Part shown: piece after piece, positions 10,167 through 45,764 of the stretch
Layout of the letters: each line of letters opens with the position of its first letter
Numbering within the stretch: position 1 is the stretch's first letter
From: an uncultured Rhodospirillales bacterium
GTDB taxonomy: Bacteria > Pseudomonadota > Alphaproteobacteria > Acetobacterales > Acetobacteraceae
Direction of reading: 5' to 3'
Assembly (NCBI GenBank): GCA_903893975.1
Contig: CAITOL010000157.1
Location: 1-64,000 of the forward strand
DNA length: 64,000 nt
Translations under genes and position numbers: made by a program
The notes under the pieces: generated by a model
The model's input: the letters and a program-made list of their open reading frames with translations, nothing else
What the model was told of the DNA's origin: nothing
Database searches by the model: none

Positions 10167-10309
10167 GGAAGCGCTCCTTTTTTGGAAAAAAGGAGCAAAA
10201 AACGTTTGAAACTTTGGCACCGTGCGCACCCCCCTCACCCGGGAATGTACGGCGAAGCCCAGGAATTGATAAAGTTTTTTTGGTTCTTTTTGTTCACAAA
10301 AAGAACACC
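10167..10309. repeat. Double-hairpin intergenic element, copy 1 (143 bp)
   Basis: The left hairpin is GCTCCTTTTTT paired with AAAAAAGGAGC (10173-10196, 11 bp, two-base gap), followed by AAAAAAC. The right hairpin is GTTCTTTTTGT paired with ACAAAAAGAAC (10283-10306, 11 bp), preceded by GTTTTTTT. The body between them resembles that of the copy at 37453-37595, and the outer boundaries give the same length of 143 bp. It separates priA from the beta-helix gene, both on the minus strand. A processing or termination role is likely but not shown by a classic T-tail. Confidence 0.8.
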
Positions 10310-10313
10310 TCCC

Positions 10314-12545
10314 CTACAAAAAACTCACCGGATCCACATCCACATCCACCCGCACCCCCCGCGTTGTCGGCACGGCGGCCAGCCAGTCGCGCAGCAGCGG
10401 TTGCACCGCGATATCACGCCGGGTTTTCAGCAGCAGACGCCGGCGATGCCGGCCGCGCAGGATGGCGAGCGGCGCCGGGGCGGGGCCGAGCACCATGATG
10501 CCGTCCCCCGCAGGGGCGGCGCGGCCCAAGGCACGGGCGGCGATGTCGGCGGCATCGGCTGTGTCGGCGGAGACGATCAGCGCTGCCAGGCGGCCATAGG
10601 GGGGCCAGTTGCCCGGCCGGCGCTCGGCGGCTTCGGACTGCATGAAGCGGTTGAAATCCCCGCTCAGCAGCGCCTGCATGACCTTGTGCTCCGGGCTGAA
10701 GGTTTGCAGCAGCACGCGGCCGGGGGCTTCCGCCCGCCCGGCGCGGCCGGCGACCTGGTGCAGCAGTTGCACGGTGCGTTCGGCGGCGCGCAAATCGCCG
10801 CCGCCGAGGCCGAGATCGGCATCCACCACCCCGACCAAAGTGAGGTGCGGAAAATGCCAGCCTTTGGCGACGATCTGGGTGCCGATGATCAGATCCACCA
10901 CACGGTCGGAAATCTGGTTGGCGGCCTGGGCGGCTGCGTCTGGGCCGATCAGCGTGTCGCTGGCCATGACCAGCAGGCGGGCATCGGGGAAGAGCGCGGC
11001 GGCTTCTTCGGTGACGCGCTCTACCCCGGGGCCGATCGGGGTGAGGCTGTTGACGGCGCTGCATTCCGGGCAGACCGACGGGATCGGCACCGAATGGCCG
11101 CAATGGTGGCATTGCAGCACCCGGCGGGCGCGATGTTCCACCAGCCAGGCGGTGCAATGCGGGCATTGCATCCGGTGGCCACAGGCACGGCAGAGCGTGA
11201 GCGGCGCGTAGCCACGGCGGTTGAGGAACAGCATCGCCTGTTCGCCGCGCGCCAACGTGTCGGTGATGGCGGCCACCAATGGCGGGGCGATGAAGCGGCC
11301 GCGCTCGGGCGGGGTGATCCGTAGGTCGATCAGGGCGATTTCCGGCAGTTCCGCGCCACCGTGGCGGCGTGGCAGATGGACCCGGCGATAGCGCCCGGCC
11401 TCCACATTGGCCAGGGTTTCCAGGCTAGGGGTGGCGGAGGCCAGCACCGCGGCGGCGTTGCATAGGCGGGCGCGGACGATGGCCATGTCGCGGGCGTGGT
11501 AGACCACGCCATCTTCCTGTTTGAAGGCGGTCTCGTGCTCCTCATCCACCACCACCAGCCCCAAGGCGGGAAAGGGCAGAAACAGCGCGGAACGGGCGCC
11601 GACCACCACCGGGGCCTGCCCGGCCGCCACCGCGCGCCAGGTGAGGCGGCGGGTGCGTGGGGTGAGGTCGGAGTGCCAGATGGCTGGGGCGACGCCGAAG
11701 CGTTTTTCAAAGCGCTCCAGCCATTGCGAGGACAGGGCGATTTCCGGCAGCAGCACCAAGGCCTGGCGACCGTGCCGCAATGCCTCGGCGATGGCTTCCA
11801 GATAGACCTCGGTTTTGCCGGAGCCGGTGACGCCTTCGAGCAAGGTCACGGAAAATTCATCGGCCTGCACCGCCGCGCGCAACGCCTGGGCGCCGGCTTG
11901 CTGGTCTGGTGACAAGGTGGGGCCGGGATGTTCAGGGTTCGGCGCGATGAAGGGCGGGGCGGCGGCCAGCGTGACCGGCACCAGCCACCCGGCATCGGCC
12001 ATGCCGCGCACCACGCCGGCGGAGACTTCGCTTGCGGCGAGCAGGGCGCTGCCGCTGAGCGGCCCGTTGGCGAGTGCGGCCAGCGCCCGCCGCCGCGCCT
12101 CGGTCAGCCGCAGTTCCGGCAGCGGGTCGGCCAGTTGCCAGCCGGTCAGCGGGCGCTCGGCGGTAACGGCCGTGGCGCGCAGGGCCATCGGCAGCACATC
12201 CCCCGGCAGCGCCAGGGTGTAGGCGGCAATCCAGTCCACCAGGCGGCGGATATCCGGGCGCATGGGCGGGACATCGAGCAGGCCGGCAATCGGGCGCAAG
12301 CGATTGTCGCCCACGCTGCCATCGGCGGGGCCATCCCAGACCACGCCCACTTCTTCCCGCCGGTTGAGCGGCACCAGCACCACGTCGCCCGGCTGCGGGT
12401 TCATCCCGGCGGGCACCCGATAGTCGAACGGCCCGGCGAATGGGAATGGCAGCAGCACCGGCACCCGCGCGGCGGCGCCTTGCGGCAGGATGTCCCCCTG
12501 CGCGGCGGCGTTGCGGTTGGGGTGCTTTCGGCGTGGGGCGAACAT
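10314..12545 (-). CDS. priA: Primosomal protein N' (replication restart helicase)
   Basis: This 743-residue helicase reloads the replisome at stalled forks. The N-terminal DNA-binding domain covers about 25-130. Walker A GVTGSGKT is at 238-245 and the Walker B DEEH box at 334-337. The zinc-binding insert has paired cysteines ([13 protein letters not shown], then [17 protein letters not shown]) at about 440-480. The motif V/VI region is [15 protein letters not shown]. Length is normal. The start at 12545 gives a short basic leader. It is divergent from fsa, in the alphaproteobacterial priA/transaldolase/xerC neighbourhood. The stop lies 5 bases from the repeat element, so the element is in its 3' end. 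Confidence 0.95.
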
Positions 12546-14308: not shown

Positions 14309-15268
14309 ATGCCCGTGCACGCATTCATTTTCCCCGGCCAAGGCAGCCAAGCGCCCGGTATGGGGCGCGACCTTGCCGCCGCCTTCGCCGCCGCGCGCGA
14401 AGTGTTCGAGGAGGTTGACGAAACCCTCCAGCAAAAGCTGTCCAAGCTGATGTTCGAAGGCCCTTCGGACGAGCTGACGCTGACCGAGAACGCGCAACCC
14501 GCGTTGATGGCCCACTCGCTCGCCGTGCTGCGGGTGTTGGAGCGCGAAGGCGGCTTTAAGCTGGCCGACCGCGCGGTGGTGGTCGCCGGGCACTCATTGG
14601 GCGAATATTCCGCCCTTGCTGCTGCTGGCAGCTTTACCGCCGCCGGCGCCGCGCGGCTGCTGCGGCTGCGCGGACAGTCGATGCAAAAAGCCGTTGCGCC
14701 GGGCGCCGGGGCGATGGCCGCCCTGTTGGGGGCAGAAATGGCGTTGGCGTTGGAAATCTGTGCCGAGGCAGCGCTGGCGCCGGATGGCAGCCGCGAAGTG
14801 GTGGAAGCGGCCAACGACAATGGCGGCGGCCAGGTGGTGATTTCCGGCCATACGGCGGCGATTGAGCGGGCGCTGGAGATTGCCAAGACCAAAGGCATTC
14901 GCCGCGCCATGAAGCTGCCGGTGTCCGCCCCGTTCCATTGCGCGTTGATGGCCCCGGCGGCCGAGGCGATGGAGGCCGCGCTGCGCCTGGCGCCGCCGTT
15001 GGCGCCGCTGGTGCCGTTGGTGGCCAATGTGTCGGCGCAAAAGGAAACCGACCCGGCGGAGATTGCGCGCCTGCTGGTCGCCCAGGTGACGGCGACCGTG
15101 CGGTGGCGGGAGAGCATGCAGGCGATGGCGGGCCTCGGCGTGGACAGCTTCATCGAACTTGGCTCGGGCAAGGTGCTCGGTGGCCTGGTGAAGCGCATCC
15201 TGCCCGACGCCACGGCGGCGTCCGCCGGCACACCGGCGGAAATCGAGGCGTTGCTGAAGCTCCTCTAG
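14309..15268 (+). CDS. fabD: Malonyl-CoA:ACP transacylase
   Basis: This 319-residue enzyme loads malonate onto acyl carrier protein for fatty-acid synthesis. The N-terminal FPGQGSQAPGMG (8-19) and the nucleophile Ser96 in GHSLGEYSAL are clear. The catalytic His lies in PVSAPFHCALM at about residue 209, and the ending helix carries VDSFIELGSGKVLGGLVKRI. It opens the cluster fabD-fabG-acpP-fabF-mltG. A double-hairpin repeat element sits between it and fabG, which may partly separate fabD from the rest of the operon. Confidence 0.95.
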   Translation: MPVHAFIFPGQGSQAPGMGRDLAAAFAAAREVFEEVDETLQQKLSKLMFEGPSDELTLTENAQPALMAHSLAVLRVLEREGGFKLADRAVVVAGHSLGEYSALAAAGSFTAAGAARLLRLRGQSMQKAVAPGAGAMAALLGAEMALALEICAEAALAPDGSREVVEAANDNGGGQVVISGHTAAIERALEIAKTKGIRRAMKLPVSAPFHCALMAPAAEAMEAALRLAPPLAPLVPLVANVSAQKETDPAEIARLLVAQVTATVRWRESMQAMAGLGVDSFIELGSGKVLGGLVKRILPDATAASAGTPAEIEALLKLL

Positions 15269-15276
15269 GAGGGGAC

Positions 15277-15344
15277 GTTTTTGGTTCTTTTTTGCAAAAA
15301 GAACGCCTCACCAAGCGCTTCTTTTTGAAAAAAGAAGCAAAAAC
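15277..15344. repeat. Double-hairpin intergenic element, copy 2 (compact form, 68 bp)
   Basis: Hairpin one is GTTCTTTTT paired with AAAAAGAAC (15284-15304). Hairpin two is GCTTCTTTTT paired with AAAAAGAAGC (15317-15338). Both resemble those of the 143-bp copies but here are only 12 bases apart and in swapped order. The unit begins GTTTTT and ends AAAAAC, so its ends are also inverted. It fills the fabD-fabG gap and could act as an attenuator within the operon. Confidence 0.75.
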
Positions 15345-37452: not shown

Positions 37453-37595
37453 GGAAGCGCTCCTTTTTTTGGAAAAAAGGAGCAAAAAACTTTTCTGATT
37501 TCGTTGCCGTTGGCGTACTCTCACCTGAAAGAGTACGCCGCAGGCCAGGCATAGATGAAGTTTTTTTGGTTCTTTTTGTTCACAAAAAGAACACC
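37453..37595. repeat. Double-hairpin intergenic element, copy 3 (143 bp)
   Basis: The left hairpin is GCTCCTTTTTT with AAAAAAGGAGC (37459-37483), then AAAAAAC. The right hairpin is GTTCTTTTTGT with ACAAAAAGAAC, preceded by GTTTTTTT. The body holds a further perfect 10-bp stem, GGCGTACTCT (37512-37521) with AGAGTACGCC (37530-37539). The body aligns with copy 1 (shared TCACC, GAA, GTACG, CCAGG, GAT, AAGTTTTTTT blocks) and total length is identical. It lies between convergent cdh and the thiamine-diphosphate enzyme, so it can serve both as a bidirectional terminator. Confidence 0.85.
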
Positions 37596-42490: not shown

Positions 42491-42515
42491 GGTTCTTTTT
42501 GTCCAGCAAAAGAAC
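42491..42515. repeat. Hairpin element, copy 4 (single hairpin remnant)
   Basis: GGTTCTTTTTG then AAAAGAAC form an 8-bp stem GTTCTTTT with AAAAGAAC around a loop. The sequence is that of the right hairpin of the 143-bp copies, without the second hairpin. It lies in the 86-base gap between the transporter (upstream) and the ligase (downstream) on the minus strand. Confidence 0.6.
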
Positions 42516-45730: not shown

Positions 45731-45764
45731 GTGTTCTTTTTGTGGACAAAAAGAACCAAAAAAC
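45731..45764. repeat. Hairpin element, copy 5 (single hairpin, inverted)
   Basis: GTTCTTTTTGT pairs perfectly (11 bp) with ACAAAAAGAAC (45733-45756) around GG, followed by CAAAAAAAC. This is the right hairpin of the 143-bp copies in opposite orientation. It lies between convergent ccrM and the DUF1684 gene and is likely a shared terminator. Confidence 0.75.

Follow-up and report, generated by a model that had tools for sequence, protein, structure and literature searches.

An untagged REP/REPIN-like repeat of paired hairpins, not linked to RAYT, at gene ends in the Acetobacteraceae

Background

What kind of element are the paired hairpins that recur between the genes of this 64,000-nt stretch of DNA (hereafter the window)? 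A sequence-only reading had described them as a dispersed family of palindromic units with five copies, all intergenic, and had proposed that the unit is mobile or recombining and has been reused as a terminator. Their nature was studied here through the copies of the window, of its genome and of related genomes.

Copies in the window

All five copies have the sequences that had been described and all lie between predicted genes; they comprise two full units, one inside-out compact form, one lone half and one lone hairpin, and are given here on the plus strand. Both full copies measure 143 bp and carry the inner AAAAAAC and GTTTTTTT arms. The first (10167..10309) is a head-to-head unit, an L half followed by an R half, which lies in a tandem gap and abuts the stop of the minus-strand gene 10314-12545. 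It is made up of a left hairpin GCTCCTTTTTT/AAAAAAGGAGC (10173..10196), an inner A-tract A6C (10197..10203) that is near-invariant across the 47 full copies of the genome, an inner T-tract GT7 (10274..10281) that pairs with this A-tract, and a right hairpin GTTCTTTTTG/CAAAAAGAAC (10283..10306). The second full unit (37453..37595) fills the gap between two convergent stop codons; its left hairpin (37459..37483) and right hairpin (37569..37592) enclose the A-tract, a central stem-loop (GGCGTACTCT...AGAGTACGCC) and the T-tract (37484..37567). The compact form (15277..15344) consists of two back-to-back hairpins with the T-tract and the A-tract turned outward, directly 3' of the stop of the plus-strand gene 14309-15268, and a lone R-type half (hairpin, C and A6C; 45731..45764) lies between two convergent genes. 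The membership of the lone hairpin (42491..42515) is weaker because the A-tract is missing, and it is probably a decayed half. The half-unit pattern has 12 overlapping matches in the window against 0.32 expected which, together with the genome-wide matches described below, supports the reading as a dispersed palindromic family. Elsewhere in the window, a 15-nt periodic repeat within a minus-strand gene (1282-1742) probably codes for an alanine/lysine-rich tail.

A repeat of the Acetobacteraceae

When the half-unit is defined as hairpin, C and A6C with at most one mismatch, the 4.2-Mb genome contains 89 of them and the reversed pattern has 0 matches. The support named by the sequence-only reading, tens of copies with conserved hairpins at the ends of genes, is indeed present. 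Exact matches occur in 99 of 397 Acetobacteraceae genomes, with 1 to 1,034 in each and with 0 to hundreds inside one genus (e.g. g17, g50, g96), counts that are lower bounds, as congeners with few exact matches hold many units by BLAST. The half-unit is essentially absent from other alphaproteobacteria, a class-wide sample of 385 genomes giving only four single matches outside the family. The repeat is carried, among named organisms, by Acidiphilium rubrum, Roseomonas sp. GC11, Gluconacetobacter liquefaciens, Rhodovarius crocodyli and Pseudoroseomonas aestuarii and, since these belong to the Acetobacteraceae, this is the host family of the repeat. Records labelled Clostridia, Oscillospiraceae or Bacteroidales also gave a few matches, probably by chance in A/T-rich genomes. 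Units were also seen between the genes of phage-like IMG/VR contigs (L285, L304, L309, L323, L325 and others), which code for proteins that look tail-sheath-like and baseplate-like by eye, and they occupy matching places in related contigs; the units may thus travel with Acetobacteraceae prophages.

Architecture, folding and covariation

Each half-element follows the same plan: two free bases separate a purine-rich flank (often ...AAGGAAG) from a hairpin of 9-10 bp, after which come a C and A6C. The full unit adds to it a variable centre and then the mirror image, that is GT6, hairpin, two free bases and a pyrimidine-rich flank. The stem of 9-10 and the loop of 4 are found in most of 507 halves, and the C next to the hairpin is invariant (512 of 516 halves). 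The 47 full head-to-head units of the genome mostly measure 131-137 bp from hairpin to hairpin and nearly always have an L half (GGAGC, GAAGC or GCAGC) facing an R half (GAACC); five inside-out pairs are also present. The predicted RNA fold of both full units of the window is a cloverleaf (z -6.5 and -3.3) in which the two hairpins stand on either side of a central arm that A6C/GT6 opens, while both flanks pair into a short closing stem, and the compact form folds into one long hairpin (z -5.5). Some centres are near-perfect palindromes (z down to -10.7) and the others only weakly paired; since they do not align, the consensus fold on a MAFFT alignment shows chiefly the two outer hairpins. Four other units of the genome (L019, L028, L039, L042) have an extra common repeat, GGCTTGCTGGAGAGGACTTTTCTGGACT...CCCTCACCCCGA, beside their R half, which suggests nested or composite repeats. 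At another locus (L024, 1490-2560), a pair of R halves, facing each other at a distance of 1 kb, brackets a gene whose 240-aa product has a twin-arginine-like start; only the right half retains its central palindrome.

Covariation was studied on 516 distinct halves from this genome, other genomes and viral loci, found with a search pattern that left arm positions 1 and 3 free; in an alignment of the half, the two loop-length classes misalign by two columns. Arm position 1 is Watson-Crick paired with its partner in 97% of halves (48% when shuffled) and arm position 3 also in 97% (74% when shuffled), through three to four Watson-Crick types at these positions. Likewise, both sides of pair 15-34 are changed in 22 of the 47 full units. 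Among these units the right hairpin has a mean pairwise identity of 99%, the A- and T-tracts 98% and the left hairpin 87%, values that the copy-finding pattern inflates for the left hairpin and A-tract and mostly not for the right hairpin, against 59% for the centre and 47-60% for the flanks. Such conserved hairpins and tracts around diverged centres, together with the covarying pairs, suggest a constraint that would act on each copy. Alternatively, homogenisation between copies could be the cause of the high hairpin identity.

Position relative to genes

The position of the copies was mapped against gene ends, as the sequence-only reading had recommended, and hairpins start at a median of 12-13 nt 3' of the stop. 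According to a codon-usage gene finder, 0 halves of the genome lie inside predicted genes and 93 of 138 have a gene that ends towards them, with a median distance of about 12 nt from stop to hairpin. The full units occupy 11 convergent, 27 tandem and 1 divergent gap, whereas the 69 gaps without units comprise 5 convergent, 39 tandem and 25 divergent ones, so that divergent gaps are depleted of full units (Fisher p 4e-5). An independent set from other genomes gives the same picture: units lie in 16 convergent, 21 tandem and 0 divergent gaps, compared with 24 convergent, 163 tandem and 88 divergent gaps without them (p 3e-6), the median distance from stop to hairpin is 12.5 nt and only 3 of 242 halves fall inside predicted genes. 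In a finished Pseudoroseomonas plasmid with its depositors' annotation, a unit is flanked by two convergent stops at distances of 13 and 5 nt. Where the gap is tandem, the half that abuts the stop may be either of the two.

Gain, loss and movement

The proposal that the unit is mobile or recombining is supported indirectly, by orthologous sites in congeners that are empty, differently filled or opposite and by a copy number that varies from 0 to about 1,000; yet neither an enzyme nor a target duplication nor recent transposition was observed. In congeners of roughly 75-80% DNA identity, the site of the compact form (15277..15344) is empty in four of four, and the stop and start codons there are 11 nt apart. 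The site of the first full unit (10167..10309) is empty in three of four congeners; in the fourth it is occupied by another copy, in which the same hairpin carries a double compensatory change. Elsewhere, orthologous sites lack the unit, hold a different one or, in one case, have it in the opposite orientation, which may correspond to an inversion or to an independent insertion. Such differences may reflect either loss or gain. A second inside-out compact copy was also observed, directly 3' of a stop codon (L423, 12770-12860), and is missing from the orthologous site in congener G193. The genome's own units include no near-identical pairs (best centre score 0.75); therefore movement does not seem to have been recent in this genome. 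No clear target-site duplication was found at the compared sites, where the congeners are too diverged for base-level borders.

Terminator layout and possible functions

The reuse of the unit as a terminator, also proposed by the sequence-only reading, is still putative. An intrinsic terminator has a G+C-rich hairpin directly followed by a T-tract; the outer hairpins cannot themselves act in this way because A6 comes next, and a scan for canonical intrinsic terminators in the 90 nt after the stop, a span that ends short of the central T-tract, found nothing above shuffled sequence. Termination, from either side, could come only from the central A6C...GT6 stem when followed by the T-rich arm of the distal hairpin. 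The central arm is followed by GT6-G-NTNC-T5/6, and the 12 nt after the T-tract contain a mean of 8.2 T in the units of this genome. Our best guess, from layout and conservation, is that this would be a bidirectional terminator. Against this, central stems are significant (z below -2) in only 25-41% of copies, and the layout is missing from lone halves and inside-out forms.

Several scenarios may explain these observations. The one that we prefer, with about even confidence, is that the units are Acetobacteraceae-specific, REPIN-like, non-autonomous repeats that were spread in trans and are kept as gene-end modules. An enzyme supplied in trans would once have spread the repeat, and the copies would now be kept because each acts as a gene-end module: a hairpin of the transcript would form immediately 3' of the stop codon, followed by the long central stem (A6C...GT6), and the T-rich arm of the distal hairpin would serve as the U-tract, so that transcription could stop from either side.

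Alternatively, the repeat could be purely selfish REPIN- or MITE-like DNA with no host function, for which gene ends are the least harmful places of insertion. The wide copy-number variation among related genomes, the orientation-neutral placement in tandem gaps and the copies beside tail genes in phage-like contigs would all agree with this, and a similar argument has been made for pneumococcal repeats enriched between convergent genes (PMC3049150). Nevertheless, the contrast between hairpins and tracts conserved at 98-99% and centres at 59%, as well as the covarying base pairs, speak against pure selfishness, and promoter avoidance alone would not require copies to lie as close to the stop as a median of 12-13 nt; we regard this explanation as less likely than the preferred one.

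The unit could also be a site at the DNA level, an extruded cruciform or an A-tract bend that a nucleoid or topology protein would recognise. E. coli REPs have been proposed as gyrase sites. The near-perfect palindromy on both strands, the invariant A6 tracts and unpaired C, and the indifference to gene direction fit such a role, but we know of no protein partner and a DNA-only role would not on its own account for the tight association with stop codons; this seems improbable.

The search for a mobilising enzyme bears on a further possibility, that the unit belongs to a REP/RAYT system and is mobilised by the RAYT of the same genome. Hairpin geometry and inverted doublets match those of such systems, and RAYT relatives are commoner in element-positive genomes (23 of 42) than in element-negative ones (3 of 38; p 9e-6), a correlation that may reflect shared ancestry only because the sampled genomes are not phylogenetically independent. 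However, the only RAYT of the genome (L129, 1354-1926, minus strand, contig C79) is flanked by different, GTAG-tagged palindromes, GTAGGGCGGAT...ATCCGCCCTAC, with which it constitutes an ordinary GTAG-type REP system distinct from the two-hairpin unit. Moreover, several element-rich genomes (G119, G171, G128, G331) have no RAYT match, GTAG stands beside the hairpin in 1% of halves, and the unit is not a regular flank of the RAYT loci examined. RAYT was thus rejected as the mobiliser, and membership in its system is very improbable and largely refuted. Other candidates fared no better: strong matches to the IS200-type Y1 transposase (PF01797) were confined to two of the element-negative control genomes, and 11 pairs of inward-facing halves, 0.7-3.8 kb apart, enclose no transposase that would point to an autonomous copy, the genes between them looking ordinary by eye from their first residues. 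No neighbour gene is recurrent except ABC transporters and phage tail genes. Finally, some support for chance A/T-rich terminators or an artefact of assembly comes from several contigs that end close to a copy, but both are refuted by the lack of control matches, the covariation and the copy in a finished, annotated plasmid.

Comparison with known repeat families

The repeat offers a clean natural experiment on the way in which small palindromic repeats can spread when no transposase is linked to them, and on whether they turn into gene-end signals. A 4-Mb genome can hold up to about a thousand copies of this conserved element, beside many stop codons; the copies may break assemblies, several contigs ending near them, and they could be of use for typing in a family employed in food and bioleaching. 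Rfam has no match at gathering score in the window, and four loci gave only sub-threshold chance matches. No description, and hence no published name, was found for the two-hairpin repeat in the open-access literature searched; it also has no Rfam model.

GTAG-tagged REPs and REPINs with RAYT are likewise high-copy, extragenic, on the 3' side of genes and arranged as inverted doublets with a variable spacer (PMC3116915, PMC3733652). Their hairpins have stems of 7-20 and loops of 2-5 (PMC3116915, PMC3733652), a range that includes the two-hairpin unit, whose 47 head-to-head units are hairpin-capable inverted doublets as in REPINs. The defining GTAG or GTGG tetranucleotide 0-2 nt 5' of the hairpin (PMC6006769) is nevertheless found in only 4 (GTAG) and 1 (GTGG) of 507 halves; the invariant C-A6-C and the purine and pyrimidine flanks replace the tag, and the unit neither regularly flanks RAYT genes nor has a specific RAYT linked to it. 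CGTC-tagged REPs are likewise alphaproteobacterial palindromes that form dimers with variable spacers, without a known dedicated transposase, and Di Nocera et al. found them missing from Acetobacteraceae (PMC3733652); none of the 507 halves carries a CGTC tag 0-2 nt 5' of its hairpin.

ERIC- and MITE-type palindromes are similarly intergenic, about 100-200 bp long and bounded by imperfect terminal inverted repeats (PMC10969869). The ends of the two-hairpin unit are also imperfect inverted repeats, but no parent transposon or target duplication was found for it, with ordinary genes (by eye) between inward-facing halves and no recurrent transposase nearby. The nearest functional parallel is SPRITE, the pneumococcal Rho-independent-terminator-like element, also a short dispersed repeat near the 3' ends of CDS, with a proposed co-option as terminators and no known target duplication (PMC3049150). 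SPRITE is a single 18-bp duplex with a U-tract, present as 30 copies in one Gram-positive species (PMC3049150), whereas the unit described here has two hairpins and a central stem and is symmetric on both strands. The repeat is thus a REP/REPIN-like dispersed repeat without GTAG or CGTC tags and not linked to RAYT. We tentatively suggest that it could represent a third superfamily of palindromic repeats beside the GTAG and CGTC REPs, confined to the Acetobacteraceae, spread by means other than RAYT and adopted across whole genomes as symmetric gene-end modules that would stop transcription both ways with a hairpin behind the stop.
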